A DNA stretch of 64,000 nt from Lentzea guizhouensis. Its GTDB lineage: Bacteria > Actinomycetota > Actinomycetes > Mycobacteriales > Pseudonocardiaceae. Made by a program: the position numbers and the translations under genes. Location of the stretch: contig NZ_CP016793.1 in the NCBI RefSeq assembly GCF_001701025.1, forward strand, positions 2,604,001-2,668,000, read 5' to 3'. Shown here in pieces: positions 3,275-29,254 of this stretch; positions within the stretch are counted from its first letter, which is position 1; every line of letters starts with the position of its first letter. Below the pieces are notes generated by a model. It was given only the letters and a program-made list of their open reading frames with translations, ran no database searches and was not told the DNA's origin.

Positions 3275-5374
3275 GTGTGCGTGACGACTGCTGCAACTTC
3301 ATCCTCCACTGATCGCCCTGCCGGGCGGGCGGCACGTGTCCGACAGGCAGTGACCGGACGACGTGGGCTAGGAGTGCTGGCCTGGCTGCTGGCCGCTGCG
3401 GGCCTGGGCATGGCGATGTGGATGGCCCGATCCTGGTCCTGGTGGTCTACGGCGTGGGTGTGGCTAGGCCGGTGGTGGATGGTGCCGGTCACGGTGCTGT
3501 TGCTGACCGCCGCGGCAGTGCTCGGGGCGCTGCGGTCCCGACACCCGGCTTCGTCACCCCGCCCTATAGCGGACCCAGGGACGGAGGTGATGCCGGCGCT
3601 GACACCGCGGGCGATCCTGCTCGGCGCACTCGTCTTGCTGGGCTTGGGCGTCACCGCGGCAGTGCTGCTGCTGGTCAACTTCTCCGGGACCGAGCCGCGA
3701 GACCGGTTGGACGCGATCCGGACCGCGGCCACGCTGTTGGTGGGCACCGGCGGCGCCGCCGCGCTGCTACTGGCCGCCCGCCGCCAACGCGCGGCCGAAC
3801 TGACCCTGGCCGTGCAGCGCAAGGCCGCCGCCGACACCGCGCACGACGCCGCAGCGCGGCGGATCACCGAGCTTTACCTGAAGGCGGTCGAGCAATTGGG
3901 CTCAGACAAGGCCGCGGTCCGCCACGGCGGCCTCTACGCGCTGGAACGCGTCGCCCAGGACAATCCCGACCAGCGCCAGACCGTGATCAACGTGATCTGC
4001 GCCTACCTACGCAGCCCCTACACCCCGCCACCCGAGCGGCCTGTCGCCCGCCGGACCGGGCTGTCCGCGGCCGCACGCCGAAGCACTGCGGCCGACCGCG
4101 TCGCCGCTCGCGCCGCGGCCGCACGCCGTATCAGCCTCACGCCACCTACACCGGCTGTTCCGCCCGAGCAGTTGCGGCAGGAACGCGAGGTCCGGCTCAC
4201 CGCCCAACGCATCCTCACCACCCATCTATGCCGCCCCAGCTCCGACAAGACCGCCGACCAGCTGGCCCATTCCCGATACTGGGCCGAGGACTATGACCTC
4301 GACCTCACCGGTGCCACTCTCATCGACTTCCACGCCGCTAACCTCACCGTGCGACAAGCAACCTTCACCGACGTGCACTTTTCCGGCGCTGCATGGTTCG
4401 ATAGGGCGACATTCACCGGCGCCGCATGGTTCAGCGAGGCGACGTTCACCGGGGCCGCGTGGTTCAGCGAGGCGACGTTCACCAGCGCCGCAGTGTTCAA
4501 CGAGGCGACGTTCACCAGCGCCGCGCGGTTCAACGAGGCGACGTTCACCGGGGCCGTGTGGTTCGACGGGGCGACGTTCACCGGCGACGCGCGGTTCAGC
4601 AAAGCGACGTTCACCGGCATCACGGTATTCAACGGGGCGACGTTCACCAGCGACGCGCGGTTCAACGAGGCGACGTTCACCGGCGACGCGATGTTCGGCG
4701 GGACGACGTTCATCGAGGCCGCGCAGTTCAACAGAGTGACGTTCACCAGCGACGCGCACTTCGACGAAGCGGCGTTCACCGGCGACGCGCACTTCGACGA
4801 AGCGGCGTTCACTGGCGACGCGCACTTCGGCGAAGCGGCGTTCAGCAGGGCCGTGCGGTTCAGCAAGGCGATGTTCACTGGCGACGCGCACTTCGGCGAA
4901 GCGGCGTTCACCGGCAACGCGCACTTCGACGAAGCGGCGTTCACTGGCGACGCGCACTTCGGCGAAGCGGCGTTCAGCAGGGCCGTGCGGTTCAGCGAGG
5001 CGATGTTCACTGGCGACGCGCACTTCGGCGAAGCGACGTTCACCGGCGACGCGTGGTTCAACGGGGCGACGTTCACCAGGGTCGCGTGGTTCAGCAAGGC
5101 GACGTTCACCAGGGCCGCGTGGTTCAGCAGGGCGACGTTCACCGGCGACGCGTGGTTCAACGAGGCGACGTTCGCCCTCGCCGCGCGGTTCGACGGAGCA
5201 ACCTTCGCCGCTATCGCATTGATGAGGAGAGCCGTAGCTGCGAGAGTATCTGTCGAGTGTGTATGGCCGATGGGATGGACAGTTGATGATCCCCGTCTGA
5301 GGACCGCAGTACCTGGTGAAGCACCGGGCATGCTGCGGCTGGTGCCAGTACCGGCGGTGCTAGCCGGGGTCTGA
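3275..5374 (+). CDS. Pentapeptide-repeat membrane protein
   Basis: This 699-aa protein has four hydrophobic segments in the first 170 residues (for example VLAWLLAAAGLGMAMWMA and AILLGALVLLGLGVTAAVLL). A conserved helical domain follows (RRITELYLKAVEQLGSDKAA, then ALERVAQDNPDQRQTVINVI, about 193-250). From about residue 345 to 640 there are more than 25 pentapeptide pairs of the ATFTGDAWFNE type, predicted to fold as a right-handed beta-helix. This layout is widespread in actinomycetes without assigned function. The start is uncertain: GTG 3275 and GTG 3281 are both possible, and the only good ribosome site belongs to a short upstream frame. It is a paralogue of the left-edge gene on the other side of fic. 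Confidence 0.85.
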   Translation: MCVTTAATSSSTDRPAGRAARVRQAVTGRRGLGVLAWLLAAAGLGMAMWMARSWSWWSTAWVWLGRWWMVPVTVLLLTAAAVLGALRSRHPASSPRPIADPGTEVMPALTPRAILLGALVLLGLGVTAAVLLLVNFSGTEPRDRLDAIRTAATLLVGTGGAAALLLAARRQRAAELTLAVQRKAAADTAHDAAARRITELYLKAVEQLGSDKAAVRHGGLYALERVAQDNPDQRQTVINVICAYLRSPYTPPPERPVARRTGLSAAARRSTAADRVAARAAAARRISLTPPTPAVPPEQLRQEREVRLTAQRILTTHLCRPSSDKTADQLAHSRYWAEDYDLDLTGATLIDFHAANLTVRQATFTDVHFSGAAWFDRATFTGAAWFSEATFTGAAWFSEATFTSAAVFNEATFTSAARFNEATFTGAVWFDGATFTGDARFSKATFTGITVFNGATFTSDARFNEATFTGDAMFGGTTFIEAAQFNRVTFTSDAHFDEAAFTGDAHFDEAAFTGDAHFGEAAFSRAVRFSKAMFTGDAHFGEAAFTGNAHFDEAAFTGDAHFGEAAFSRAVRFSEAMFTGDAHFGEATFTGDAWFNGATFTRVAWFSKATFTRAAWFSRATFTGDAWFNEATFALAARFDGATFAAIALMRRAVAARVSVECVWPMGWTVDDPRLRTAVPGEAPGMLRLVPVPAVLAGV
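4386..5205 (+). repeat. 30-nt periodic repeats in the pentapeptide gene
   Basis: Units of about 30 nt built on GCGACGTTCACCGGC plus a variable GCCGCGTGGTTCAGC-like half recur through the coding region. They encode paired pentapeptides. The near-identity at DNA level between neighbouring units suggests recent tandem duplication or conversion. Confidence 0.8.
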
Positions 5375-5615: not shown

Positions 5616-7709
5616 TCAAGCGTTTTTGCGGATGAGGCCGGTGTAGGCGGCGATGGTGAGGGTGGCCAGTGCCCAAAGGAGAGCTTGGAGGGCCCAAAGC
5701 AAATAGGTGAAGGCTTGGCCCCACCGTGTGGCGGTGTCGAGGTCGCATCGGGCGCGCAGGCCGGTGGCGCCGACGGGCAGGCCGCGGTCGATGCCGAGGC
5801 CTATGAGCTCGGCGGTGGAGCAGGGGATACCGGGTGCGGTGGTGGGGGTGGTAGGTGGTTGGACGCGTTCGGCGGCGTGGTGGGTTGGTCGGGTGGTGAT
5901 CTGTCCTGCGGTGTAGCCGGTGGCGCCGGCGACGACCAAGACGATGAGAAGGGCGGTGACCAGTCGATGAGCGCGGTAGCCGTAGCGACCCAGCCAGCCC
6001 CATAGCCAGTGGCGTGCGCGTGCGAGAGTGCCACCGAGCGCGTCAGGAGTGCGGCGGCGTAGGTCGTGCTGCTGGGTGATGAGGATGGTGCGGGCGTTGT
6101 TATCGTGCCCAGCAGCGCGTTCCACCGCGGCGAGTTGCTGGTAGGGCTGGGGCAGGTACCCGGAGGTGTGGTGAACCAGCAAATGCAGCCACTCTCGCCA
6201 GGTGACGTCCCGAAGCTGCTTAAATACAAGCCCTCCCACGGCCATGCGGCGTGCTCCGTCAATGCAGGGATGGTCGCTGACTTCACTGCGGGACCGCGGG
6301 CACACCAGCGCGACGGAGAAAAACATTCCCCGGTCCACCTGTGCTTCCGTGAGATCCAGCAAGGCACCGGTGTCGTTGATCAGCTGTGTACTGGTCAAGT
6401 GAGCTTGGCCGCTGACGCGCGCGCCCACCAGCCAAACGGCCCCCTTTTTGCCGGTGGCGGTGATGTGCGCATCGCGCAAGAATAGATTGTCGCCGATGTG
6501 GATGCCGTCGGCGACCAGAGCGGGACCGGCGGTGTTGGTGATGGTGGCTCGGTCGAGGTCGAGTTGGCCGCTGATGTCCGCGCCCAGCAGCCGGATGGCC
6601 CCGTTTTCGCCAGTGCCCGTGAAGTGCGCATCGCGCAGGAACATGTGGCCGCCGGTGCGGATGCCGTCGGCGACCAGAACGGGTCCGGTCGCGTTGGTGA
6701 TGGTGGCTCGGTCGAGGTCGAGTTGGCCGCCGATGTCCGCGCCCAGCAGCCGGATGGCCCCGTTTTCGCCAGTGCCCGTGAAGTGCACATCGCGCAGGAA
6801 CATGGTGTTGTCGCTGCGGATGCCGTCGGCGACCAGAGCGGGACCGGCGGTGTTGGTGATGGTGGCTCGGTCGAGGTCGAGTTGGCCGCCGATGTCCGCG
6901 CCCAGCAGCCGGATGGCCCCGTTTTCGCCAGTGCCCGTGAAGTGCACATCGCGCAGGAACATGTGGCCGCCGGCGCGGATGCCTTCAGCGTCAAGAACGG
7001 GTCCGGCGGTGTTGGTGATGGTGGCTCGGTCGAGGTCGAGTTGGCCGCCGATGTCCGCGCCCAGCAGCCGGATGGCCCCGTTTTCGCCAGTGCCCGTGAA
7101 GTGCACATCGCGCAGGAACATGTGGCCGCCGGTGCGGATGCCGTCGGCGACCAGAACGGGTCCGGTCGCGTTGGTGATGGTGACTCGGTCGAGATTGAGT
7201 TGGCCGCCGATGTGTGCGCCCAGCAGCCGGATGGCCCCGTTTTCTCCGGTACCCGTGATACGAACGCCGCGCAGCAACAGATTGTTGTCGGTGCGGATGC
7301 CGTTGGCGTGCAGGACTGAGATAACGCTGCGGTCCAGGCTCATTCTGTGGAGGCGCGCGTCTTCACACTCAATTCCATCCGATAACGCACAGCCGTCTAG
7401 CGCCAGGCCGGTGACCGCCGTGACGCGATCCAGATTCAAGCGGCCGATCACCCGCACACCGCGGATGAGTACGCCGCGCGGATCGAGTTCGCCGCGGCGT
7501 CCCATAAGAAGTTCGCGGATCAGCTCCGCCCGCACTTGCAGTTCTAAGTCCTCAGCATCGACAAGGTCTGCAGCCGCCAGTGTGACGGCAGGTTGGGCCC
7601 AAGTCCCTCGGCGGGCGGCGTCAATGACCGCTTCTTCAAGTGTGCTGAGCTTGTCCAACACCGGTGGCAGCTGCGAATCGCTCACCTCACCGTTTCGTCT
7701 ACACCGCAA
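5616..7709 (-). CDS. Repeat-rich membrane protein with six 53-aa repeats
   Basis: This 697-aa protein begins with a helical domain (LDKLSTLEEAVIDAARRGTW) and continues with LDLDxATI/LLGADIGGQ repeats, a pentapeptide-like beta-solenoid pattern. Six copies of a 53-residue unit (RDVHFTGTGENGAIRLLGAD plus IGGQLDLDRATITN) fill about residues 145-470. A globular region with tryptophans (REWLHLLVHHTSGYLPQPYQ) follows, then C-terminal membrane segments (VTALLIVLVVAGATGYTAG and AFTYLLWALQALLWALATLT). Related actinomycete proteins are sometimes labelled membrane oxidoreductase, but I see no cofactor motif. An internal GTG at 7685 is an alternative start. The gene overlaps its upstream neighbour by 11 nt. 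Confidence 0.8.
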   Translation of the reverse strand: MRCRRNGEVSDSQLPPVLDKLSTLEEAVIDAARRGTWAQPAVTLAAADLVDAEDLELQVRAELIRELLMGRRGELDPRGVLIRGVRVIGRLNLDRVTAVTGLALDGCALSDGIECEDARLHRMSLDRSVISVLHANGIRTDNNLLLRGVRITGTGENGAIRLLGAHIGGQLNLDRVTITNATGPVLVADGIRTGGHMFLRDVHFTGTGENGAIRLLGADIGGQLDLDRATITNTAGPVLDAEGIRAGGHMFLRDVHFTGTGENGAIRLLGADIGGQLDLDRATITNTAGPALVADGIRSDNTMFLRDVHFTGTGENGAIRLLGADIGGQLDLDRATITNATGPVLVADGIRTGGHMFLRDAHFTGTGENGAIRLLGADISGQLDLDRATITNTAGPALVADGIHIGDNLFLRDAHITATGKKGAVWLVGARVSGQAHLTSTQLINDTGALLDLTEAQVDRGMFFSVALVCPRSRSEVSDHPCIDGARRMAVGGLVFKQLRDVTWREWLHLLVHHTSGYLPQPYQQLAAVERAAGHDNNARTILITQQHDLRRRTPDALGGTLARARHWLWGWLGRYGYRAHRLVTALLIVLVVAGATGYTAGQITTRPTHHAAERVQPPTTPTTAPGIPCSTAELIGLGIDRGLPVGATGLRARCDLDTATRWGQAFTYLLWALQALLWALATLTIAAYTGLIRKNA
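6472..7270 (-). repeat. 159-bp tandem repeats within coding sequence
   Basis: The marker TCGCGCAGGA (or a close variant) recurs at 6472, 6631, 6790, 6949, 7108 and 7267, exactly 159 bp apart. Each unit encodes 53 residues. The middle units are nearly identical at nucleotide level, so the array is a candidate for copy-number variation and a risk for assembly collapse. Confidence 0.92.
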
Positions 7710-9002: not shown

Positions 9003-9773
9003 TTAATCGGGTATCGGGAATCGATAACTGAACGCTGCAGTGTCTCCTGCAATAACGGAGATCATGACCTCAACAGGCCGTCCCGTGTCCGTGAAGACTG
9101 TACGCACGAGTTCGAGAACTGGAGTACCAGGCGGAAGCTGAAGCTCGACCGACTCCGGACCGGTCGGCATTCGGGTGCAAATCTCCTCGGCAATTTCAGC
9201 CAACCGGAACCCCGCCTCCTCCAGTCGCGCAAAACCGCCACCAGGACCCGTATCACGCTCCATGATGGCGGTCCCCCGAACTACCTCAAGTTCGTAATAA
9301 CTATCGGCGAGCTGGTTCGGGCGACCGTCGACCGCCGTCGTACGCCGTCGGACCCACACCGGGGTCCCTACCGCGATATTCAATCGACTTGCAACAACTT
9401 CCGGGGCAGGAACCTCTTCAAGCGCACGAATGTTCTGGCTCGCTGCGACGCCTGCGACCTTCGGCGCAGCGACCAATACAGTTTTTCCCGACTGCCAGAG
9501 GCTACGTGAGTAGCGCTCGATCCCCTGACGCTGAAGCATCGGACGTGACCGCACAAACGTGCCGCTACCCTGGACGGTCACGATCAAACCCTGCTGCTTC
9601 AGCAGGTCTATCGCCTTGCGGATCACCGCCAGTGAGCACTTGTGCTCTGTGGCGAGCTCGTCGAAGGACGGCAACTTGCGGCCAGGCGGCCACTCGCCAC
9701 TCTCGATCTTGAGTCGGATGTCGTCGGCTACCTGCACTTGCAGCGGTCGCGCGTCGGTGAACCTGCTGGTCAT
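9003..9773 (-). CDS. GntR/HutC-family transcriptional repressor (KorSA-like)
   Basis: This 256-aa protein has an N-terminal winged helix (LQVQVADDIRLKIESGEWPP, then LPSFDELATEHKCSLAVIRK) and a C-terminal UTRA ligand domain ending in YRFPIPD, which is the HutC subfamily layout. It sits at the left edge of the mobile-element genes and is divergent from the long rightward operon, the position and family of KorSA in pSAM2. Upstream palindromes TCTGCATACAGA and TCTGTATACAGA fit the HutC operator rule (GT-N-TA-N-AC), so it probably represses both itself and the rightward promoter. The ATG at 9773 has a short GCAGG ribosome site. Confidence 0.88.
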   Translation of the reverse strand: MTSRFTDARPLQVQVADDIRLKIESGEWPPGRKLPSFDELATEHKCSLAVIRKAIDLLKQQGLIVTVQGSGTFVRSRPMLQRQGIERYSRSLWQSGKTVLVAAPKVAGVAASQNIRALEEVPAPEVVASRLNIAVGTPVWVRRRTTAVDGRPNQLADSYYELEVVRGTAIMERDTGPGGGFARLEEAGFRLAEIAEEICTRMPTGPESVELQLPPGTPVLELVRTVFTDTGRPVEVMISVIAGDTAAFSYRFPIPD

Positions 9774-13023: not shown

Positions 13024-13779
13024 ATGCCCAAGAACAAGTTCACGCCTCGCGGTTGCCACGTTCCCGCCGACCTGCGGCCGTGGTCGACGCGCTGGCCCTA
13101 CTACACGCCGGTGGACATCACCCCGCCCCAGCTGACGCGCAAGGGGCTGCCGGAGAGCGTCGCGGAGGGCTGGGCCGAGCCCGCGGTGACGCCTGAGGAT
13201 GTGCGGGACTGGCCCGGCCGCGCGGCGTCGGCGCTGGTGCCGTTCACGTTCGACGCCTACCGGTGGCCGCTCAACCCGACCGGCCGCACCGGCAAGACCG
13301 GCCGCAACCTGGGCCGCTGGGGCGAGAACCGCGCTGCCGACCCGATCGTGGTCGCCGGTGACCTCGACCGCGACGGGGAGCGGTGGGTGCTGCTGATCCT
13401 GCGCGGCGACACCAGGCAGTGGGCCATCCCCGGCGGCATGGTCAACCCTGGCGAGACCGCCCCGGCCGCGCTGGTGCGCGAGCTGCGCGAGGAGACCGGC
13501 GTCGACCTGGCCGGCCAGACGCCCACGATCGTCGCCTGCGCTTACGTCGACGACCCGCGCAACTCCGATCACGCCTGGATCGTCTCCACCGCCGCGCTCT
13601 ACCGGCTGCCGCACACCGTGCTCGCGGTCGGCGGCGACGACGCCGTGGAAGCCGCCTGGTTCCCGTTCAGCGATCTGGACGCGCTGACCAGTGCCGTCGC
13701 CGACGCCGGCGGGCAGCTCTACCCCGCGCACCTGCCGCTGTTCACCGCGGCCCTCGACCACCTCGACGGCTGCTGCTGA
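13024..13779 (+). CDS. NUDT9-like Nudix hydrolase (probable ADP-ribose pyrophosphatase)
   Basis: This 251-aa protein has the full Nudix box GGMVNPGETAPAALVRELRE-ETGVDL (about 138-163). The preceding segment PLNPTGRTGKTGRNLGRWGE plus NRAADPIVV matches the signature of NUDT9-type ADP-ribose pyrophosphatases, which hydrolyse ADP-ribose to AMP and ribose 5-phosphate. pSAM2 encodes Pif, a Nudix-motif protein that confers transfer immunity (established for pSAM2), so a similar role is a reasonable inference. Its place among transfer genes supports that. ADP-ribose clearance against NAD-based defences is another option. Confidence 0.88.
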   Translation: MPKNKFTPRGCHVPADLRPWSTRWPYYTPVDITPPQLTRKGLPESVAEGWAEPAVTPEDVRDWPGRAASALVPFTFDAYRWPLNPTGRTGKTGRNLGRWGENRAADPIVVAGDLDRDGERWVLLILRGDTRQWAIPGGMVNPGETAPAALVRELREETGVDLAGQTPTIVACAYVDDPRNSDHAWIVSTAALYRLPHTVLAVGGDDAVEAAWFPFSDLDALTSAVADAGGQLYPAHLPLFTAALDHLDGCC

Positions 13780-14635: not shown

Positions 14636-15748
14636 GCACCTGGGCTGAGAACCGCCGCGCCGACCGCGTGGCCGCTGCCGAGCAGGCGCGTGAGGACCGC
14701 CGGGTGCTGGCCGAGCTGCGCGCCGACCGTGACCACGACGCCCGCATCCGCGCGCAGGCCGCGCAGGCCGCGCGGGACCGCCGTGCCGCCGCACTGGCCA
14801 CGGTGACCAGCTGGACGCGGGATCACGTGCTGGACCTGATGTTCGCTCCGGTGATCGTCGTCCCGGCGGTGCTGGCGTGGACGGCGATGGCCGTCTACGG
14901 CGAAAAGATCTTCGGTCCGGCGGGGGTGCTGCTGCCGCTGTTCTCCGAGGGCGCCATGTGGGTGTTCGCGTTCGCCGTCGCGTTCGCGGCCCGCGCGGGC
15001 CGGTCCACCGGCTGGTTGCAGCTGGGCACATGGGTGTTCGCCGGGGTCGCCGCGGCGCTCAACTTCGTGCACGGGGTCGAGCAGCCCGGCGGCGGCATCG
15101 GCCACGGCATCGTCATGGCGCTGGTGTCGATCGGCGGCGTGGTGGTGCACCAGCTGGTGCACGCCAACCCCATGCGCGCTCGCCGCACCCGTGCCGAGCG
15201 GGCCGCGGCGAAGGTCGAGCGCGACGCGCAGCCGGTTGCAGCGGGTGCGCCGCGCCGCCGTCCGCCAGGCCGCCGCGCAGGTCGCCGCCGATGGCACCGC
15301 GACCCTGGTCTACCGGCCTGGCACGTTCATCCTGCGTGGCGGATTCGGCTGGCCGCGACTGGCCCCGGCGACCGTTCCCGGCCTTCCCGTGGACGTGCTG
15401 GGAGCCGAGCTGGGCGACGGCCTGGCCGACGAGATCACCGCCTACCTCACCGCCCTGCCTGCCCCGGACGCACTGCCCGGCGGGAAGACCGAGCACCCCT
15501 CGGGAAGAGGGCAAACGCCCGCCACGACCTCCGCTGTGGAGGTCCCGGCGGAGATCGCGGACAAGTTCGGCGGCTACGTCGCGCGGGTCCGCGCGGCGAT
15601 CGACTCCGGCAGGCTCCCGGCCTCGCCGAGCAAGGACGCGGTGCGCAAGTTCCTGCGCATCCGCGCCACCTACGCAGCCGCCGTGTGGCAGGCCGCGACT
15701 GACCACGACAACGGCCCCGACGACGGCCGTCAGGAGGTGACCGCATGA
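14632..15748 (+). CDS. DUF2637/SpdB-like membrane protein, apparently frameshifted
   Basis: The first frame from ATG 14632 encodes a charged coil and then a DUF2637-like membrane block (LFSEGAMWVFAFAVAFAARA, WLQLGTWVFAGVAAALNFVH, IVMALVSIGGVVVHQLVHAN). After about residue 198 this frame turns into Arg/Pro-rich nonsense. The next frame takes over with sensible sequence (RLQRVRRAAVRQAAAQVAAD, TLVYRPGTFIL, KDAVRKFLRIRATYAAAVW) and ends at 15748 with the ATGA overlap to traB. One extra nucleotide near 15222-15240 would explain it. This could be a sequencing indel, a real lesion or recoding. SpdB proteins help spread transferred DNA through the mycelium. Confidence 0.7.
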
Positions 15749-18027
15749 ACACCCTCGACAACACACAGCCCGAGCAGCACGACGAGCACGGTGCGCGGGT
15801 CTACGACCTGTCCGCGCACCGCACCACCACCGCCGCCGACCAGCCCGCAGTGGACGGCGACGCGCAGCAGCAGCAGCAGCACGCGCACGACAGTGAGATC
15901 GTGACCGGTCCTGCGGCTGCCGAGCTGGAGGCGCGGGTACAGCGCGGCGAGCTGCGCACGATCCCGCAGACCCGCATCGGTCGTGCGCGGGTCGTGGTGG
16001 TCACGCAGGGCGGCAAGGCCGTGCGGCGCACCGCCCGCGCGGGCTGGACGGTGGCGCAGGGCCACGGGTCGTGGATGCGCCGTGCCGCCGACGCGGTGAC
16101 CTTCGGCCACGTCCGCGAACAGATCCGCCTGGCTCGCATGCAGGGCGACAGCGTCGCCCTGGCGGAGTGGACCGAGCGGCTGAACATGCTCAAGACCGGT
16201 CGCGCGCAGCGCATGCGCGAGCTTCCGGCCACCATCTACGCCGGGCTGCGTGCCGCCGCCGTGGTGACCATCGTCGCCGCCGGCGTCATGCTGATGGCGG
16301 GGCTGGCCTTCCAGCTCACCCCCGGTGGCTGGACGTGGGGCGACTGGTGGAGCTTCGTCGGTGACGTTGTCGGCATCGCCGGGGTGTTCGCGACGATCGC
16401 CCTGCACACGGTGCTGTGGGGCGCTGCCCCTGCGTGGCTGTTCGCCGCCTGGCGGGAAGGACGGCGCGCGGGGATCGTGCCGCGCTGGCTGGTGTCGGAG
16501 ACCGAGCGCGCGGAGATGAACTCCGAGATCACGCCGGACCTGGTCACCCAGGCGCTGATGCACGTCAAGCTCCCGGCATTGACCAAGTTCCTCAAGGACG
16601 GCGGCCAGCTGGAGTACCTGATTCAGCCGCGTGAGCAGGGCGGCGGCACGTATTTGCAGGTCAGGCTGCCGTTCGGGGTGGTGGCGGCGGAGCTTTTGCC
16701 GTCGAAGAAGGTGGAGCTGCTGGCGGGCAACCTCGGGCGGCACAAGCACGAGGTGTGGCCGCAGCGCGATCCGGCCGCCGACGCCCGCGTGCTGGACCTG
16801 TGGGTGGCCGACAAGGGCACGATGGACAAGCCCGCTCCGGCCTGGCCGCTGCTGGAGACCGGCGAGTTCGACGTGTTCCGTGAGCGCATCCCGTTCGGTG
16901 TCACCATGCGCCAGGAACAGATCGAGGTCGGTGCGCTGCAGAAGCACTGGCTCATCGGCGCCACCTCCAAGCAGGGCAAATCGACCGTCATGCGGCTGAT
17001 CGCCCTGTGCTTGGCGCTCGATCCGACGATCGAACTGAAGATCGCCGATCTCAAGGGCGACGGTGACTGGAAGATGTTCACCCCGCGCGCCACCACGTTC
17101 ATCGAGGGCTCCACCGAGGAGGACGCGGAGGCCACCGCGGCCATGCTCGAATGGGGCGTGGCGGAGATGGAACGCCGCTACCAGGCCAAAGCCGACCAGA
17201 ACATCGTCGGGCCGATCACGCGGGAGATCTCGCGGCGCAAGGGTTCTGGGTTCCACCCGGTCTACCTGATCGTTGACGAGTGCCAGGTTCTTTACGGCGC
17301 GGAGCACCCGGTGGGCGGTACCAAGGACGGTGCCCGCGCGGTCAAGGCCGCCAAGCGGCTGCACGACCAGGCCCGCGCGGTCAACATCCACCTCATGCAG
17401 GCCACCCAGCGTCCCGACGACCGCACGCTTCCGGTGCGGGTACGTGAGGGCGCGCACGTGCGCGGCTCGCTCAACGTCCCCAACGAGGCCACCGCGAAGA
17501 TGATCCTGGCCGACGCGGTGGACCGGGGCGCCCGCCCGCAGGACCTGCGGCCCGGCGCGGATGCCGGAACCATCGTCATGACCGGCGAGGTGGAGGACAT
17601 TCCCGCAGGTCAGGCGTTCGTCATCGTGCGCAGCCACTACGTGTCGACCAAGGACGCCTACGCGGTCATCGCCCGCGCGATGGACATCCTCAAGCGCCAC
17701 GGCCGCCAGGTCACCGCACCGGTGACCGAGCAGCCCGTGCAGGTCGACCACCTGCGCAACATCGAACGCGCCCTGCGCGACGAACCGCGCGCCCGCACCG
17801 CCGTGGTGCTCGCGCGCCTGATCGAGCACGACCCCGACACCTACACCGCCATGACCGCGCAGACCTTCGCCGCACTGCTTGACGAGGTCGGCGTGCCCAT
17901 CCGCAAGAGCCACGGCGACAGCGTCATCCGCGCCACCGACATCACCAGCGCCCTCACCCAGCGTGACAGCCATGACGGCGACTCAGAACGCGCCGACACC
18001 AACGCCGGCAGCCGTGACGGTGCCTGA
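15745..18027 (+). CDS. FtsK/SpoIIIE-type DNA translocase (TraB-like)
   Basis: This 760-aa protein has two membrane segments near residues 160-240 (AVVTIVAAGVMLMAGLAFQL and FVGDVVGIAGVFATIALHTV). The motor domain follows with Walker A GATSKQGKST (about 404-413), Walker B VYLIVDECQV (about 505-514), and the FtsK-type QATQRPDD and ADAGTIVMTGEVEDIPAGQA segments. The C-terminal 100 residues look like a winged helix that could read DNA repeats. TraB proteins move double-stranded DNA between mycelia during conjugation of actinomycete elements. ATG 15745 has an AGGAGG site and overlaps the preceding stop. Octamer repeats that may be its target start 30 nt after its stop codon. Confidence 0.9.
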   Translation: MNTLDNTQPEQHDEHGARVYDLSAHRTTTAADQPAVDGDAQQQQQHAHDSEIVTGPAAAELEARVQRGELRTIPQTRIGRARVVVVTQGGKAVRRTARAGWTVAQGHGSWMRRAADAVTFGHVREQIRLARMQGDSVALAEWTERLNMLKTGRAQRMRELPATIYAGLRAAAVVTIVAAGVMLMAGLAFQLTPGGWTWGDWWSFVGDVVGIAGVFATIALHTVLWGAAPAWLFAAWREGRRAGIVPRWLVSETERAEMNSEITPDLVTQALMHVKLPALTKFLKDGGQLEYLIQPREQGGGTYLQVRLPFGVVAAELLPSKKVELLAGNLGRHKHEVWPQRDPAADARVLDLWVADKGTMDKPAPAWPLLETGEFDVFRERIPFGVTMRQEQIEVGALQKHWLIGATSKQGKSTVMRLIALCLALDPTIELKIADLKGDGDWKMFTPRATTFIEGSTEEDAEATAAMLEWGVAEMERRYQAKADQNIVGPITREISRRKGSGFHPVYLIVDECQVLYGAEHPVGGTKDGARAVKAAKRLHDQARAVNIHLMQATQRPDDRTLPVRVREGAHVRGSLNVPNEATAKMILADAVDRGARPQDLRPGADAGTIVMTGEVEDIPAGQAFVIVRSHYVSTKDAYAVIARAMDILKRHGRQVTAPVTEQPVQVDHLRNIERALRDEPRARTAVVLARLIEHDPDTYTAMTAQTFAALLDEVGVPIRKSHGDSVIRATDITSALTQRDSHDGDSERADTNAGSRDGA

Positions 18028-19556: not shown

Positions 19557-21272
19557 ATGGGCATCACGTTCACCGACATCTTCTGCGGCGCGGGCGGTTC
19601 CTCGATCGGCCTGACCGCCGCCGGGTTCGAACTCAAGCTCGCCGCGAACCACTGGGACCGCGCGATCGAGACGCACGCCGCGAACTTCCGCGACGCCGAC
19701 CACCTGTGCGCGGACGTGTCGAACTACGACATGCGCCGCCTGCCCCGCACCGACGTGCTGTGGGCATCACCGATCTGCACCGAGCTCAGCCCCGCCGGGG
19801 GACGTAAGCAGAGCCGCGGGCAGCTCGACCTGCTGGCCGACCTCAACGAGCACGGCCCGGTCAGCTCCGACGCGCTGACCCGTACACGGGCGACCTTTCA
19901 CGACGTCATCCGGGCCGCCGAGGTCCACCGCTACAAGGCGGTCCTAGTCGAGAACGTCGTCAACGTGGCCACCGACTGGGAGTTGTTCGACTGGTGGGTG
20001 CAGGGCATGTGCCAGCTGCGCCCCGGCTACAACGTGCAGTTCGTCTCCGCCAGCAGCGCCCACATCGGCGGCCCCGGCAACCCACACGCCCCACAGTGGC
20101 GCGACCGGCTCTACATCGTGTTCACCCGCAAGGACATCACGCTCCCCGACGTCAGCCCGCGCCCGCTCGCCTACTGCGCCAAGTGCGACCAGGTGATCGA
20201 GGCGTTCCAGTCGTGGAAGCGCCCGGAGCGGCGCACGATCGGCAAGTACGGGCAGCAGTACGTCTACCGCTGCCCGTCCACCAGCTGCGGCCACGCGATC
20301 GTGGAGCCCTACGTCCTGCCCGCCGCCGCCGCGATCGACTGGACCGACCTGGGCCAGGTCATCGGGGAGCGCGCCAAGCCGCTGGCCGCCAAGACCGTCA
20401 AGCGCATCCAGGCAGGGCTGGACATGTTCGCCCAGCCCATCGTCGCCGCCGCCGGTGGCAACACGTGGGAGCGGCCGGGTTCGGGCTACGTGCGGGCATG
20501 GCCCGCGATGCGGTCCCCGGCCATGGCCCGCACCGGCACCCCCGGTGACGGCGTCGCGGTGCCGCCATTCCTCACGCCCGCCGGCGGCACGTGGAACGAG
20601 ACGCCGACCGAGGTCGGTGTGCCGATGCGGACCCGCACCACGCGCGACACCGAAGCCCTGGTGTGCCCGCCGGTGATGGTGTCGGTCAACCACGACGGCG
20701 ACGGACGCGCCTACCCGGCCGACTCCCGGCCGCTGCCCTCACGCACCACGAAGATCGGCGACGGGCTGGCCTTGGCGCCGCCGTTCGTGGCGGAGCTGCG
20801 CGGCGGCGGGTCGACCGCACGGCCGGTCGCGCACCCGCTCGCGACCATCACCGCGGGCGGCAACCACCACGGCCTGGTCGTGCCCGATAAAGCATTTATC
20901 ACCCGCCACTACGGCGGCCACGACACCTCCAAGTCCCGGCCGGTGACGCAGCCCCTCGGGGCGATCACCGCGACCGGCGGCAACCATAGCCTGGTCATCC
21001 CGTACCGGCGCGGCGCCAAGCCGCACCGCGCGGACACCCAGCCGATCTCGACCGTCGCCACGCGGGAGCAGCACGGGCTGATGCACGCCGGGTACGCGGT
21101 CGAGGACTGCCGGTTCCGGATGCTCAAGCCCAGCGAACACCTGGCGGCACAGCGGTTCCCGGCCAGCTACGTCGTCACCGGCAACTCCGGCGAACAGACC
21201 ATGCAGGCGGGCAACGCCGTCAGCTCCAACGTCGCACAGTGGCTCGCCATCCGCCTCGCGAAGGTCCTCTAG
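19557..21272 (+). CDS. C5-cytosine DNA methyltransferase
   Basis: This 571-aa protein has motif I FTDIFCGAGGSS (5-16), a motif IV variant SPICTE with the likely catalytic Cys74, motif VI VENV (about 130), motif VIII QWRDRLYIVF and motif X GNAVSSNVAQW. A four-Cys insertion (CAKC ... CPSTSC) may bind zinc. The target-recognition region contains repeated phrases of the type RPVTQPLGAITATGGNHSLV. No restriction endonuclease gene lies nearby, so it is probably an orphan enzyme, perhaps shielding the element from host restriction. The ribosome site GAAAGG is about 12 nt upstream. Confidence 0.9.
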   Translation: MGITFTDIFCGAGGSSIGLTAAGFELKLAANHWDRAIETHAANFRDADHLCADVSNYDMRRLPRTDVLWASPICTELSPAGGRKQSRGQLDLLADLNEHGPVSSDALTRTRATFHDVIRAAEVHRYKAVLVENVVNVATDWELFDWWVQGMCQLRPGYNVQFVSASSAHIGGPGNPHAPQWRDRLYIVFTRKDITLPDVSPRPLAYCAKCDQVIEAFQSWKRPERRTIGKYGQQYVYRCPSTSCGHAIVEPYVLPAAAAIDWTDLGQVIGERAKPLAAKTVKRIQAGLDMFAQPIVAAAGGNTWERPGSGYVRAWPAMRSPAMARTGTPGDGVAVPPFLTPAGGTWNETPTEVGVPMRTRTTRDTEALVCPPVMVSVNHDGDGRAYPADSRPLPSRTTKIGDGLALAPPFVAELRGGGSTARPVAHPLATITAGGNHHGLVVPDKAFITRHYGGHDTSKSRPVTQPLGAITATGGNHSLVIPYRRGAKPHRADTQPISTVATREQHGLMHAGYAVEDCRFRMLKPSEHLAAQRFPASYVVTGNSGEQTMQAGNAVSSNVAQWLAIRLAKVL

Positions 21273-24077: not shown

Positions 24078-25130
24078 ATGACCACGAACCGGACTGTGCA
24101 GACCGCCGCTGACGCCGCGTTGTGGCTGGCGGTGCACCGCGGCTGGCACGTCCTGCCTCTCAACTACGGCACCAAAACCCCGCTGCGCGGCTGCGCCGAC
24201 TGCCGCGCCGAGAACACCGACCACACTCCGCAGACCTGCCCGTGCCTGGCACGTGGCGACGGGGCGCTGTGCCACGGCGTGTGGGCCGCCACCACCGACG
24301 CGAGCGTGATCAGCCGCTGGGCGCAGCGCTGGCACACCAGCGTCTGGGCCGTGCACCTCGGGGCGTCCGGGCTGCTCGCGGTCGACCTCGACACCCGCCC
24401 CGGTCCGCCGCCGCGCCACCCGCTCAACGGCCTGCCCTGGCCCGCCGACGAGCCCCCGCCGGTGGACGGGCTGGACACCTACGCCACCCTCGCCGCGCTA
24501 TCCGGTGGCACGGTCGGCGACACGTTCACCACCGACACGCCCTCCGGCGGTCTGCACCTCGTCCACGAGGCAGAGCCGGGCCGGTGGAAGGGCAGTCACG
24601 GCAAGGTCCGCGACGGCGACGACACTGTGCGCACCGGCCTTGGATGGCAGATCGACATCAAGGCCTACGGCGGCTATGTCGTGCTGCCCGGTTCCACGAG
24701 CAAGGCCGGTCTGTACCGGCGCAGCTCGACCACCACCACGCCGTTGTGGCGCCCGGACTGGCTGGCCGACGCCCTGGCCCGCACCGGCCACGACCGCACC
24801 GCCACACCCGCCAAGGCCACGTCCGCACCGGCGCCCGTAGCGACTGGCGGGCGGAGCGGCCCGAGGCGCTACGCCGTCGGCGCCCTGCGGTCCGCCTGCA
24901 CCGAGCTCGCGGTGATGGAGCCCAACAGCGGACGCAACCGCAAGCTGTTCCGCTCGACCACCCGCCTGGCGGGCATGGTCGCCGCTGGATGGATCGACCG
25001 CACCGAGGTGGAAACCGCGCTGGCCGCCGCCGCCGGCCACGCCGGGCTCCCAGCCGGGGAGATCCGCTACGCCCTCACGTCCGGGTTCAACCGGCCGCTT
25101 CCCGTCCCGGACATCCGGAGCGCCGCGTGA
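24078..25130 (+). CDS. Bifunctional DNA primase/polymerase (PrimPol)
   Basis: This 350-aa protein has the PrimPol N-terminal domain: GWHVLPLNYGTKTPL (22-36), the acidic metal pair AVDLD (D103, D105), SGGLHLV (His160) and QIDIKAYGGYVVLPGS (D193). A Cys cluster (CADC ... CPC ... C, 39-65) sits near the N-terminus. PrimPol proteins start and extend DNA strands; in AICEs they serve as replication initiator modules. The ribosome site is strong (AGGAAGGGA). The helicase-like gene follows by 55 nt and the two probably act together at an origin on the excised circle. Confidence 0.9.
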   Translation: MTTNRTVQTAADAALWLAVHRGWHVLPLNYGTKTPLRGCADCRAENTDHTPQTCPCLARGDGALCHGVWAATTDASVISRWAQRWHTSVWAVHLGASGLLAVDLDTRPGPPPRHPLNGLPWPADEPPPVDGLDTYATLAALSGGTVGDTFTTDTPSGGLHLVHEAEPGRWKGSHGKVRDGDDTVRTGLGWQIDIKAYGGYVVLPGSTSKAGLYRRSSTTTTPLWRPDWLADALARTGHDRTATPAKATSAPAPVATGGRSGPRRYAVGALRSACTELAVMEPNSGRNRKLFRSTTRLAGMVAAGWIDRTEVETALAAAAGHAGLPAGEIRYALTSGFNRPLPVPDIRSAA

Positions 25131-25185: not shown

Positions 25186-26871
25186 ATGAGCATCACCGCC
25201 GACCCCACCCCCGACACCAGCAACGGCGACCACAGCGTGCCCGCCGACCGCCCGGCGATCCAGATCGGCGGCGAGGCCGAAACGATCCGCGTCCTCACGG
25301 CCGCGCTGGGACAGGGCGCGCTGCCCGACGTTTACGTCTGCGGCGGGCAGCTGGTGCACCTCTCGCGCGTGTCCGGCAAAGCCGCCGGCGCCGCGGAGCA
25401 CGCCCACCAGGCCGCCTCCGGGGCGCTGCCGGTGCAGGCCGACCCGCTCACCGCGTCGTCGCTGGCGTGGCTGCTGGCCCACCACGCCTACGTCTACCGC
25501 GACAAGTTCAACAAGCAGACCGACCAATGGGAGCAGGTCGAGGCCAGCCCCACCAAAGCCGCCCTGTCCGCGGTGCTGTCCACCCGCTACTGGCCCGACG
25601 TCCGCCCGCTCACCGGCGTGGTCACCTCACCGGTGCTGCGCCCTGACGGCACCCTGCTGCAGACCGCCGGATACGACACCCCAACCGGCCTGTACTACGC
25701 CCCCAACACCGCCATGCCGCACATCCCCGCGCAACCATCCACACAGGAAGTCACCGACGCGCGCGAGTTCGTGCTCGGCACGCTGCTGCGGGACTTCCCG
25801 TTCGTCGCCCCGGCCGACAAGGCCAACCACATCGGCCTGCTGGTCGCGCCGATCCTGCGCCCCTACCTGGGGTGCCTGACCCCGTTCGGTCTGATCTCCG
25901 CCACTACGCAGTCCAGCGGCAAGACGCTGCTGGCCGAGATCCCCGGCTACCTCTACGGCCGCAAACACCTCGTGTGGCGCAAGGGCGACGACTCCGAGCT
26001 GGAGAAGTCCATCACCAGCGCCCTGCACAGCACCGCCCCGGTGATGCTGTGGGACAACCTCGCCGAAGGAACCGAAGTCAACTCCGCGGTGCTGGCCAAG
26101 CTGCTCACCGGTCCGCAGTGGGATGCCCGGATGCTCGGCTCCAACGGTGCCGGGTTCGAGGCGGCCAACGACCGGCTGTGGCTGGCCACCGGCAACAACA
26201 TCCGGCTGGGCGGCGACATGGCCACCCGCACCGCCCTCGTGCGGCTCGACCCCAACGACCCGCACCCCGACCAGCGCGACCAGACCGGGTTCGGCATCCC
26301 GCACCTGGACGACTGGCTCAAGAAACCCGCCAACCGCGTCACCGTGCTGCGGCACCTGCTCATCCTGGTCATGGACTGGATCAACGCCGGAGCACCCCGC
26401 AGTGGTCACACCATGCGCCAGTTCACTAGCTGGGCAGACGCGGCCGGCGGGTTCCTCGCCCACCACAGCATCGACGGGTTCCTCGACAACCTGGAGGAGA
26501 TGCGCGAGGCCGACGACGAGAACACCGAATGGACCGCGTTCCTCGCCCAGTGGCACGAGCTGCACGGAGACCAGCGCCTGCGCAGCAAGGTCCTGTGCCA
26601 CAGCGCCGAACCCCAGCTCATCGGCGACCAGCTGGTCGACCGCTGGGAAGGCACCTTCCTCACCGACGACCGGGACCGCATCCTGTCCCCGAAGAGCATC
26701 GGCAAACTGCTCACCGGCCACGTCGGCCGCTGGCACGGCCGCCACGTCCTGCGCAGCACCCTCGACAAGCACGCCAACTCCCTCGTGTTCTGGGTCGAAA
26801 CCAGCCCCGAACAGGCACAACCCGACCACGACCACACCAGCGCCGCCGACGACCAGACGGCACTGATGTAG
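25186..26871 (+). CDS. Replication helicase-like ATPase
   Basis: This 561-aa protein has a P-loop variant ATTQSSGKT (about 239-247), Walker B VMLWDN (about 285-290) and a sensor segment LATGNNIRLGGD. This is the layout of plasmid/phage primase-helicase ATPases that follow PrimPol genes. The N-terminal 180 residues are of unknown fold and the C-terminal part holds helical, Trp-containing segments. An AGGGAGG ribosome site precedes ATG 25186. It probably unwinds DNA at the element's origin; the GCGGGTTTG repeats just downstream are candidate binding sites. Confidence 0.85.
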   Translation: MSITADPTPDTSNGDHSVPADRPAIQIGGEAETIRVLTAALGQGALPDVYVCGGQLVHLSRVSGKAAGAAEHAHQAASGALPVQADPLTASSLAWLLAHHAYVYRDKFNKQTDQWEQVEASPTKAALSAVLSTRYWPDVRPLTGVVTSPVLRPDGTLLQTAGYDTPTGLYYAPNTAMPHIPAQPSTQEVTDAREFVLGTLLRDFPFVAPADKANHIGLLVAPILRPYLGCLTPFGLISATTQSSGKTLLAEIPGYLYGRKHLVWRKGDDSELEKSITSALHSTAPVMLWDNLAEGTEVNSAVLAKLLTGPQWDARMLGSNGAGFEAANDRLWLATGNNIRLGGDMATRTALVRLDPNDPHPDQRDQTGFGIPHLDDWLKKPANRVTVLRHLLILVMDWINAGAPRSGHTMRQFTSWADAAGGFLAHHSIDGFLDNLEEMREADDENTEWTAFLAQWHELHGDQRLRSKVLCHSAEPQLIGDQLVDRWEGTFLTDDRDRILSPKSIGKLLTGHVGRWHGRHVLRSTLDKHANSLVFWVETSPEQAQPDHDHTSAADDQTALM

Positions 26872-26902
26872 CCGCGGCCAGCAGCTGCCGTGCACCCCCG
26901 CT

Positions 26903-27036
26903 GCGGGTTTAGCGCGGGTCTGCGGGTTTGCTCCGGGTTTCCCGCGGGTTTGACCCGCACCCAAACCCGCACACCATCACCGCAGTTCACAGCCCTGCCG
27001 TACCCAAGTTGCGGGTTTGCGGGTTTGAAACCCGCA
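26903..27036. repeat. GCGGGTTTG repeat array B
   Basis: Copies of GCGGGTTTG or one-base variants occur at 26903-26911 (TTTA), 26922-26930, 26944-26952, 26962-26970 (inverted), 27011-27019 and 27019-27027, with an inverted AAACCCGC just after. They lie directly behind the replication genes and before xis/int. The array shares its 9-mer with array A, 7.5 kb away. Confidence 0.75.
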
Positions 27037-27149: not shown

Positions 27150-27476
27150 ATGTCCAACGCTGACAGTCCCAAGCTGCACAAGCCCGTAGATGTCGCCAAG
27201 CGCCTCGGATGCTCGGAATGGTGGGTGAAGGAGCAGGCACGCCGCCGTCGAATCCCGTATAGCTGGATCGGTGGGCGCTACCTATTCACCGACGCCCACA
27301 TCAACGAAATCGTGTTGATCTGCGAGAAGCGGCCGGTTTCGGTCGAAACCCCAGTCACTCATCAAGGTGAATCGCCGCGCAGCGTCCCTTCTTCCGGTGA
27401 ACAGCCCGTGGTGAGGCTTCGTGCGCGTCCACCGCGCCGCGCACGCGCAACAGCGGGCCGTTCGACTGCCGCATGA
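27150..27476 (+). CDS. Excisionase-like winged-helix DNA-binding protein
   Basis: This 108-aa product starts with KPVDVAKRLGCSEWWVKEQA, then RRRRIPYSWIGGRYLFTDAH, a MerR/excisionase-type helix-turn-helix with wing (about 10-52). A disordered basic tail follows. Its position directly before the integrase gene matches xis of AICEs, which biases Int toward excision. A 15-bp stem-loop lies between the two genes and may tune integrase levels. Some members of this class also regulate. Confidence 0.85.
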   Translation: MSNADSPKLHKPVDVAKRLGCSEWWVKEQARRRRIPYSWIGGRYLFTDAHINEIVLICEKRPVSVETPVTHQGESPRSVPSSGEQPVVRLRARPPRRARATAGRSTAA

Positions 27477-27483
27477 CAACTTC

Positions 27484-27521
27484 TGTGCACGCCGTCGCAT
27501 TAAATAGCGACGGCGTGCACA
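27484..27521 (+). terminator. 15-bp stem-loop between xis and int
   Basis: TGTGCACGCCGTCGC (27484-27498) pairs perfectly with GCGACGGCGTGCACA (27507-27521) around an AT-rich loop. It lies 19 nt before the integrase ATG, so it may attenuate read-through from xis into int or protect the transcript. Confidence 0.7.
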
Positions 27522-27540: not shown

Positions 27541-29055
27541 ATGGGATTCGCAGAGAATCGCGGTGACTACTATCGTGCTCGATACAAGATCGCGCCTGGC
27601 AAGTACGGCACGGTAAAGAACGAGTTCGGTGAGACCATCCGATACGCCAAGAAGCGTGATGCGGAGAAGGCCGCCAACGATGCAGAGGCAGACATTCGCA
27701 GCGGGCGTGTCAGTGCCGTCAAACAGGCTGGTGTGCTGTTCGGTGAGTACGTGGATAAATGGTACGCGGCGCAGGACCTGGCAGCGTCTACGATGCAGAA
27801 CTACCGCAGGCACATCGAGGAACACATTCTGCCCACATTCGGGGACAAGATAATTGGAGAAATCCGGCCCTTGGACGTGAACGAGTGGGAGAAGAGCGAG
27901 CGCGCCGCAGGCTACGCCGAGTCCAGCATCAAAACCTGGCGGGGAACTCTGCACCTGGTCTTCGCCGACGCGGTCGACGACCCGACCATTCCGATCGACT
28001 CGAACCCGGCGGCAAGGCGCCGAGGCAGAGGTAAGCGTGCGGGTAGGTCCAGCAAGCGAGGACCCGAGAAGGCGATCACGACCATGCTCGGGGTGCTGCT
28101 GATCGCCGAACGCGCAGCCCTGTTGTCTGGCCGCGATGACGAGTTCGTGGCCATCGTGACCAAGGGCTACACCGGAATGCGCTGGGGCGAGCTGGTTGGT
28201 TTGGAGGCTCAGTACGTGAAGAAAAGCGGTATTCGCGTCGAATGGCAGCTTTACGAGCTGGACACAGGAGAGTTTCACAGGTGTCCGCCGAAGGATGACT
28301 CATACCGGACGATCGACACTCCGGAGTGGCATTCATGGCTGCTCGTTGAGCATCTGGCCAAACGAAGCGCTGGACCATGCACATGTCATGGCCTTGACTA
28401 CGTGTTCACCGGCCATCGGCCGAGCAACACCTCTGCGCGAAGTACGGGCGCGAAACTCGTTGATGTCGCACGGCTTGCCGCGGTGTCTGTCGGAACCGTG
28501 TCCAACGTGCTCAACCGGCCAGCGACGGTGCCGATGAGGACCCGGCTCGCTGTCGAGAGCGCGATTTCGGATCTCGGTTATGTCCGTGGCGGCGCACCGA
28601 CGCAGCTTGCCGCGCACTGGCGCCGGAACGGGTTCGCGACGTGGCTGTTCAAACCGGCCGCAACAGGTTGGTATCCGGCGAAGGCGCCGCACGCGGCTCG
28701 ACCGGTGCCCATCATCGGCAACCCGTGGCCTGGAGTGCCGGCACGTGGCAGGAATGCCACGGCACGTGCTGACGCGTCGTGGCTGCCCGTCGCGCCCGGT
28801 CTAACGCCGCACGGACTGCGGCACACGCACAAGACGCTCCTGGTGGAGCTGAACGTGCCGAAACCACTCCAGGATGAGCGGATGGGGCACTTGGACGGCT
28901 CTGTGCAGGGTCGCTACTCGCACGTGACGCAGTCGATGAGGCATCAGCTCATGGCGGACCTCACAGAGGTCTGGGAGCAAGCATTGGAGTTGCGGCGGGT
29001 GATGAGCCCGACCTCGCCGGTTGTTGTCCTCGACAGGCTTCTCAGAGCCTCTTGA
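27541..29055 (+). CDS. Tyrosine integrase with internal LacI-type helix-turn-helix
   Basis: This 504-aa protein has a SAM-like arm-binding/core-binding part (EYVDKWYAAQDLAASTMQNY) and all catalytic residues: Arg214 (GMRWGEL), Lys251 (PPKDDSYRT), His424-Arg427 (HGLRHTH), His450 (MGHLDG) and the nucleophile Tyr459 (GRYSHV). Between Lys251 and the HxxR motif lies an unusual insertion. Residues 304-345 (KLVDVARLAAVSVGTVSNVL, then NRPATVPMRTRLAVESAISD) are a textbook LacI-family DNA-binding head. The extra length (504 aa) comes from this and a following linker. The gene ends about 125 nt from the tRNA-Pro 3' end, the expected target. ATG 27541 has a TGGAGAG ribosome site. Confidence 0.93.
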   Translation: MGFAENRGDYYRARYKIAPGKYGTVKNEFGETIRYAKKRDAEKAANDAEADIRSGRVSAVKQAGVLFGEYVDKWYAAQDLAASTMQNYRRHIEEHILPTFGDKIIGEIRPLDVNEWEKSERAAGYAESSIKTWRGTLHLVFADAVDDPTIPIDSNPAARRRGRGKRAGRSSKRGPEKAITTMLGVLLIAERAALLSGRDDEFVAIVTKGYTGMRWGELVGLEAQYVKKSGIRVEWQLYELDTGEFHRCPPKDDSYRTIDTPEWHSWLLVEHLAKRSAGPCTCHGLDYVFTGHRPSNTSARSTGAKLVDVARLAAVSVGTVSNVLNRPATVPMRTRLAVESAISDLGYVRGGAPTQLAAHWRRNGFATWLFKPAATGWYPAKAPHAARPVPIIGNPWPGVPARGRNATARADASWLPVAPGLTPHGLRHTHKTLLVELNVPKPLQDERMGHLDGSVQGRYSHVTQSMRHQLMADLTEVWEQALELRRVMSPTSPVVVLDRLLRAS

Positions 29056-29128
29056 CCGGGAGCCTCTCCGGGGGTGAAACGGGAGTTGTTCTCCCAGATT
29101 TCTCCCAGAACAGTCCGCGAACACAAAT

Positions 29129-29163
29129 CAGGCCCTGTCCACGTCTACTGTGGACAGGGCCTG
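29129..29163. terminator. 14-bp stem-loop between int and tRNA-Pro
   Basis: CAGGCCCTGTCCAC (29129-29142) pairs perfectly with GTGGACAGGGCCTG (29150-29163) around GTCTACT. It can stop int transcripts from the left and tRNA transcripts from the right. Confidence 0.8.
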
Positions 29164-29180
29164 ACCTGTATCTATTTCAA

Positions 29181-29254
<74 letters not shown>

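Follow-up and report, generated by a model that had tools for sequence, protein, structure and literature searches.

The integrase gene int of Lentzea guizhouensis studied here encodes a tyrosine integrase (Int) whose catalytic domain is split by a DNA-binding head of the LacI type, a helix-turn-helix (HTH) module kept under purifying selection. The gene belongs to a 29.4-kb pSAM2-like actinomycete integrative and conjugative element (AICE) residing in a tRNA-Pro gene, and lies in a stretch of 64,000 nucleotides (hereafter the window; contig NZ_CP016793.1 of assembly GCF_001701025.1, positions 2,604,001 to 2,668,000). The domain layout of Int, in window coordinates, is the following:

27541..29055, plus strand: int, tyrosine integrase with inserted LacI-type HTH, 504 amino acids (open reading frame with ATG start; Pfam, homologues, AlphaFold2 model)
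27541..27726, plus strand: N-terminal arm-binding domain, residues 1-62, of which 16, 22, 23 and 39 covary with the arm repeats
27739..28035, plus strand: core-binding (SAM-like) domain, residues 67-165
28063..28416, plus strand: catalytic domain part one, residues 175-292, with R214 and K251
28417..28614, plus strand: inserted module (linker, HTH, hinge-like linker), residues ~293-358, not in sister integrases
28453..28587, plus strand: LacI-type HTH, residues 305-349, with helices 306-313, 317-325 and 332-345
28615..29052, plus strand: catalytic domain part two, residues 359-504, with H424, R427, H450 and Y459

Pfam placed PF14659 at residues 67-116, the phage-integrase catalytic end (PF00589) at residues 419-464 and, at residues 306-348, the LacI family PF00356 with 44.1 bits for a cut-off of 27 (E=1.8e-11). 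In a sequence search of the PDB the LacI headpiece 2bjc aligned with residues 305-358 (E=4.3e-6), which gives the numbering used below (LacI residue i is Int residue 300+i), and the LacI-family regulators found in NCBIfam and the PDB matched the same stretch as PF00356. The HTH thus sits between K251 and H424-xx-R427, where an earlier note, made from the sequence alone, had put it. The core-binding and catalytic fold of tyrosine recombinases is present, and the residues R214, K251, H424, R427, H450 and Y459 are identical in 96/96 aligned integrases, window Int included, which bears out the same note's statement that the catalytic set is complete. Recombination itself is seen by outcome alone, as 51-bp direct repeats at both ends of the element. 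Structure prediction, a check set beforehand, gave the expected result for the HTH: the AlphaFold2 model contains its three helices. It contains no hinge helix, and both linkers around the HTH are loosely modelled.

The borders of the module were read from insert-free relatives. The closest one in the same bacterial family, the integrase of locus L025 (41% identity), led to a sister group (P0121-P0240) where PF00356 was found in 0 of the 120 listed integrases. Because these sisters ('YVFLG..gGHFRRSNY') align with Int up to 'YVF.G' and resume at 'H.RR' ('YVFTG', then ~66 residues, then 'HWRRNGF'), residues ~293-358 form one inserted module. In a tree of 99 sequences from which the insert columns had been removed, 81 insert-clade sequences are set apart from 18 sister sequences with a support of 1.0; the identity of these 18 to window Int is 38-43%. 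On this evidence a single gain of the insert, followed by one or more losses, seems to have occurred. Like the element in the window, locus L025 has tandem repeats, a hairpin, CCTGACCTG and a tRNA; unlike window Int, the sister integrases have no HTH, and some show a CxxC...H...C stretch instead, immediately ahead of the HxxR segment. This stretch, a different insert and possible zinc site in the Lys-HxxR interval, was seen just before 'ASWLP...HGLRH' in the insert-free P0150, P0161, P0187, P0329 and P0333; no Pfam match above cut-off was found for it in the three that were scanned (P0150, P0161 and P0187).

Of the 8000 candidates scored in a protein search with Int, 1612 reached E<=1e-3. All the 120 homologues listed among them carry PF00356, which answers the earlier call to look for other recombinases with the same insertion and means that the LacI head of Int is not there by chance. 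They are mostly 500-520 amino acids long, and their hosts are Lentzea, Saccharothrix, Micromonospora, Streptomyces, Kitasatospora and others. Full-length matches, running from residue 1 to 502 or beyond with at least 62% identity, are present in 14 of 390 genomes of the window's own bacterial family, the window's counted. A phylum-wide search gave a match in 1/296 genomes; as five candidates were scored per genome listed, no prevalence figure follows from it. The scan of genome contigs gave 262 relatives, the best 80 of which were kept, to which viral contigs contributed 15 and plasmids two loci. The HTH is present in 95 of the 96 integrases read from these loci; the remaining one, L044, was left unscored, its frame being broken. 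L044 and L134 (a fragment) were excluded from the integrase set, and L131 from the residue counts on 95 sequences. Six further members, the most divergent among them, were scanned by Pfam: PF00356 matched in all six, above cut-off in five and just below it in L131. In the plasmid collection 7 records match Int, 2 of them over at least 80%; the phage collection gave no match. Two circular plasmid loci, L038 (phiM2) and L039 (pSITFR-21c), have ERF or RecT and exonuclease genes near the LacI-head integrase; they resemble phage genomes and are probably phage-plasmids. By hand count, 39 of the 48 named homologues among the 120 listed are called 'LacI family DNA-binding transcriptional regulator' at NCBI; since most names are of this kind, such integrases, and with them the mobile elements, are easily missed.

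The ratio of nonsynonymous to synonymous substitution rates (dN/dS) is 0.26 for the HTH, as low as for the catalytic domain, which indicates purifying selection; the sequence pairs behind this value, and those of the tRNA comparison below, are not independent. The backbone-contact residues S321, T319, N325 and S316 are nearly invariant. The base-reading positions 317, 318 and 322 are mostly T (64/95), G (81/95) and N (82/95), and the recognition helix varies little, reading TGTVSN in 46 of 76 integrases. With its clean borders relative to the sisters, its Pfam match, its low dN/dS and its modelled helices, the segment is no ordinary variable loop, the outcome that the earlier note had named as fatal to its proposal.

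The candidate DNA sites lie around int and its target tRNA gene:

29089..29107, plus strand: left-arm tandem repeats TTCTCCCA-GAT-TTCTCCCA, 11-bp period
29130..29162, no strand: hairpin, then TGACCTG
29177..29227, plus strand: attL core, 51 bp
29181..29254, minus strand: tRNA-Pro(CGG), integration target, 126 bp past int
G000:C1:2603773-2603823, 178-228 bp beyond the window's left end: attR, partner of attL (96% identity), copy of the tRNA 3' part
27150..27476, plus strand: xis, HTH_17 excisionase-like protein, 108 amino acids (below Pfam cut-off, 23.9 versus 27 bits)
27485..27520, no strand: inverted repeat in the xis-int gap, 14 bp and perfect, loop of 8 nt, read from the sequence

From int towards the tRNA, the order is a tandem pair of 11-bp repeats (in the window, TTCTCCCA), the hairpin with TGACCTG and the tRNA itself. 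Since similar hairpins flank tRNA-Pro in L142, L144 and L146, which have no arm repeats, the hairpin at 29130..29162 is interpreted as a remade tRNA terminator. Of 39 right arms, 29 share a layout in which the positions after the core are 9-16 for AGGTCCGG, 27-32 for GACCTG, 50-58 for GCAGGTCAG, 61-78 for GCGTTGGT/GTTGGTC and 115 for the tandem arm repeats; in the other 10 the repeats are not exactly at 115 (four are shifted by 1-2, six show no pattern). Some genomes contribute a second copy to these 39 arms, and the attR of L047, L052 and L106, found on other contigs, are uncertain.

The domain that varies with the tandem arm repeats is the N-terminal one. In Streptomyces elements, repeats of the TTCTCCC type (12 loci) are found with Y22 and those of the GGCTCCC type (17 loci) with H22, with no exception; the labels were set by hand, most of them from repeats 1.2-9.5 kb past int, and that of L088 from a minus-strand match. 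The N-terminal domain is 60% identical between the two groups and 86% within them, the HTH 80% versus 84%. Because the repeat type tracks N-terminal residues while the HTH hardly differs, we infer that the N-terminal domain reads the tandem arm repeats. In the full set of 76 integrases the residues that covary most with the repeats are 22, 23, 39 and 16, all N-terminal; in the Streptomyces comparison, which ranks all 504 positions, HTH positions 317, 318, 320 and 322 come 125, 339, 161 and 337. Among loci L063-L119, residues 1-62 and the arm repeats seem to have been swapped together, the other domains being alike between the groups. Two candidate targets of the HTH were rejected: the tandem arm repeats, also found in the insert-free L025 and covarying with N-terminal residues, and TGACCTG with its hairpin, also in L025 and with similar hairpins in L142, L144 and L146.

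The host site was considered in the same way. The 47 integrases with an assigned target (nine assignments were set by hand) use tRNA-Pro (41), tRNA-Val (5) or tRNA-Ala (1). Along the integrase tree, the target moved from tRNA-Pro to tRNA-Val three times independently. Linker residues 170 and 171 change in 3/3 of these lineages (backgrounds 0.05 and 0.12), core-binding residues 132 and 136 in 2/3 (background 0.0) and HTH residue 322 in 2/3 (background 0.31); changes in 3/3 lineages also occur at positions of higher background (66, 115, 172, 228, 265, 269 and others). Core-binding and linker residues follow the host-site switches more closely than the HTH does. The association of residue 322 with the tRNA target, strong without kinship control, is weak with it.

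The reading that we favour, tentatively and at a little less than even confidence, is that the HTH would be a third DNA-binding module within the complex of integrase and attachment (att) DNA. A LacI-family repressor head was acquired as one clean insertion in the catalytic domain of an active-type AICE integrase. Tethered by the two loosely modelled linkers, directly before catalytic-domain helix 362-375, whose counterpart in related recombinases occupies the major groove of the core site, it would most likely dock at or beside the att core, on bases that vary little between elements, and by docking may steady or license Int on its site. Of the three functions offered in the earlier note, recognition of an extra site is still the most plausible, but the tandem arm repeats go with the N-terminal domain and the other right-arm repeats more probably with Xis.

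Several observations weigh against a third DNA-binding module at the core. None of the variable DNA sites could be assigned to the HTH with confidence. In the covariation analysis the HTH showed no marked association with any of seven right-arm blocks (enrichment 0.37-1.37). Residues 317 and 318 gave single-column associations in the block beside the core, confounded by one clade, and residue 318 scores level with residues 79 and 134, mere markers of one clade. Binding by LacI heads normally involves a dimer and a hinge helix; the hinge of Int is LacI-like only superficially: residues 350-358 evolve fast (dN/dS 0.59), and the equivalent of LacI Leu56, L356 in window Int, is a leucine in only 16/95 integrases. 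The earlier description of residues 304-345 as LacI HTH and hinge therefore stands for the HTH and needs correction for the hinge, the inserted unit being a little larger (~293-358). The rows of the structure search span mainly residues 62-455, the HTH being outside its coverage. Finally, P0248, which has no HTH, nests within the insert clade (support 0.97), a secondary loss (the placement of P0324, also without HTH, is less sure), and the L083 integrase has an altered recognition helix, MRTMST; because of these two cases the HTH is not strictly essential.

Other roles can be considered for the head. Int could be an autoregulator that represses the xis-int promoter through its LacI head, so that the amount of Int and the transcription of its gene would be coupled. 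Heads of the LacI type belong to repressors, a hairpin is present between xis and int, and the regulation of integrase genes is a known theme (the title of PMC2951348, on intS). We nevertheless hold this role to be unlikely. Among 81 regions near int no shared CG-centred palindrome was found (14 bp, at most one mismatched pair): the best half-site was present in 11/81, and the best of the control, whose number of regions is not given, also reached 11. The xis-int hairpin differs in sequence between elements with the same recognition helix, and in several other tRNA-Pro elements, read by eye, the corresponding hairpins have other sequences; the repeats upstream of xis likewise differ between the elements compared. 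Repression of its own promoter, the second function offered earlier, is therefore left without support. The third, that Int responds to a regulatory state as LacI does, is unlikely: Pfam finds no C-terminal LacI ligand-binding sensor domain in Int up to E=1, what comes after the HTH being the rest of the catalytic domain, and without sensor domain or conserved hinge the HTH would not work as a ligand-controlled repressor. The head could also be an architectural or protein-contact module, its HTH surface packing on another Int protomer, Xis or a host factor, with DNA binding secondary. The conserved fold residues, the loosely modelled linkers, the DNA-site search without result and the weak DNA binding of a single unpaired LacI head would all fit; the near invariance of S321, T319, N325 and S316, needless for a mere docking surface, makes us consider this improbable. 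A clamp that adds general DNA affinity in the intasome without reading bases would account for the conserved backbone contacts, the somewhat variable positions 317, 318 and 322 and the lack of clear covariation; as these three positions are still mostly T, G and N, such a clamp seems quite unlikely.

Two of the remaining alternatives assign a definite sequence to the HTH. The right-arm tandem GCGTTGGT/GTTGGTC repeats are conserved in the 29 aligned arms and are not in the right arms of the insert-free elements in G336 and L204, and LacI half-sites often read CGTT. However, no such repeats were seen in L122, L123, L132 and L128, all of which have a LacI-type HTH, and the HTH enrichment at the repeats is 0.87 and 1.37. 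The repeats are weakened where the Xis helix is SVWW or SAWW (L041, L106, L076), which makes Xis the likelier reader. Intact GTTGG repeats tend to accompany an Xis with SEWWVKEQ, and weak or missing ones other Xis; L095 (SEWW, degraded repeats) and L047 (SGWW, intact repeats, attR from another contig) are exceptions that count against Xis as reader. Probably, but not surely, these repeats are Xis sites, an attribution based on few cases, and reading by the HTH is very unlikely. That the HTH helps to read the host attB, position 322 shifting with the target, is more doubtful still: N322 is replaced by A or G in 5/5 tRNA-Val integrases and is N in 36/41 of the tRNA-Pro ones, but five tRNA-Pro integrases also lack it, and in the matched sisters above residues 170 and 171 (3/3) do better than residue 322. 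To a neutral passenger, a tolerated relic, we give almost no credence; the loss in P0248 and the altered helix of L083 would suit it, while a dN/dS at the level of the catalytic domain and the PF00356 matches in the six further members speak against it.

The rest of the element agrees with its assignment to the AICEs: a tyrosine integrase and xis at a tRNA 3' end with direct repeats, an FtsK/SpoIIIE-type translocase and its own replication protein are all present. A PP2C-like gene is also part of its content, along with the following:

24078..25130, plus strand: Prim-Pol replication protein (PF09250, 80 bits)
25186..26871, plus strand: probable replication protein, 561 amino acids, no Pfam match, by position only
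15745..18027, plus strand: FtsK/SpoIIIE-type DNA translocase (PF01580, 27.5 bits, cut-off 24)
9003..9773, minus strand: GntR/UTRA regulator, KorSA-like by family only
13024..13779, plus strand: NUDIX protein, Pif-like by family only
1710-2912, minus strand: Fic-domain protein, carried by the element
19557-21272, plus strand: C5-cytosine methylase, carried by the element
3275-5374 (plus strand) and 5616-7709 (minus strand): two large pentapeptide-repeat cargo proteins, one with PF13576 at 329.8 bits, the other below cut-off

Between the replication gene and xis (26880-27035) are GCGGGTTT-type repeats; other elements compared have quite different ones (TGCGTCA, TCTCCGCA and others) at this place, resembling element-specific iterons. 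At 44 further loci there is no tRNA beside int (a few of them are among the nine targets set by hand), and a tRNA-Pro(CGG) is found farther downstream in 27/44. In these 27 (L070, L077, L084 and others), an additional 1.7-9.5 kb, either cargo or another element, separates int from tRNA-Pro. Direct repeats sought around the loci without adjacent tRNA gave just 16-20-bp matches, at five loci.

The integration target of pSAM2 is a tRNA-Pro. Like the element in the window, elements with pSAM2-type integrases of Streptomyces have a PrimPol, an FtsK-type translocase, GntR and NUDIX proteins and xis-int beside a tRNA. The arm-binding tyrosine recombinases Tn1549 integrase and lambda Int are not known to have an HTH between the catalytic lysine and HxxR. 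With LacI/GalR repressors, Int shares the headpiece (a 46-residue Pfam domain) and a hinge-like stretch; it differs from them in that no sensor domain was found, the hinge is not conserved and the head is internal rather than N-terminal. In the available text of PMC3218068, pSAM2 carries KorSA (GntR) and the NUDIX protein Pif, and a LacI insert is mentioned for no AICE integrase, the sole 'LacI' being a colour key in a Frankia figure; the main text of a tyrosine-recombinase survey, as available, has zero 'LacI' (PMC8138268). In the literature searched, no paper describing a LacI head inside an integrase was found.

The nearest parallel is an engineered one. Among the catalytic residues of Cre are Lys201 and His289, so that a domain placed between residues 278 and 279 falls in the Lys-His interval, presumably after the equivalent of Cre helix J, the insert of Int coming before it. 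According to the available part of PMC11631766, a zinc-finger domain was put there in Cre-type recombinases, which stay dormant until the inserted domain binds; there an engineered zinc finger, here a natural LacI-type head, both are foreign DNA-binding domains in the Lys-HxxR interval. By analogy, Int might be a natural 'insertionally targeted' recombinase, its catalytic domain licensed only once the built-in head docks on a fixed element of the att complex, which we regard as rather doubtful. Should such licensing hold, the CxxC...H...C sister integrases might, with similar reserve, represent a second, independent module inserted in the same interval.

To conclude, nature has built a transcription-factor head into the catalytic domain of a tyrosine recombinase, and selection has maintained it across many genera of actinobacteria. 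For the attachment sites of these elements, part of the layout is decoded, the N-terminal domain being paired with the tandem arm repeats. The same Lys-HxxR interval was chosen by engineers for programmable recombinases (PMC11631766, as available), and with the LacI-head integrase one can readily ask if recombination can be licensed by a DNA-binding module inserted in the enzyme.
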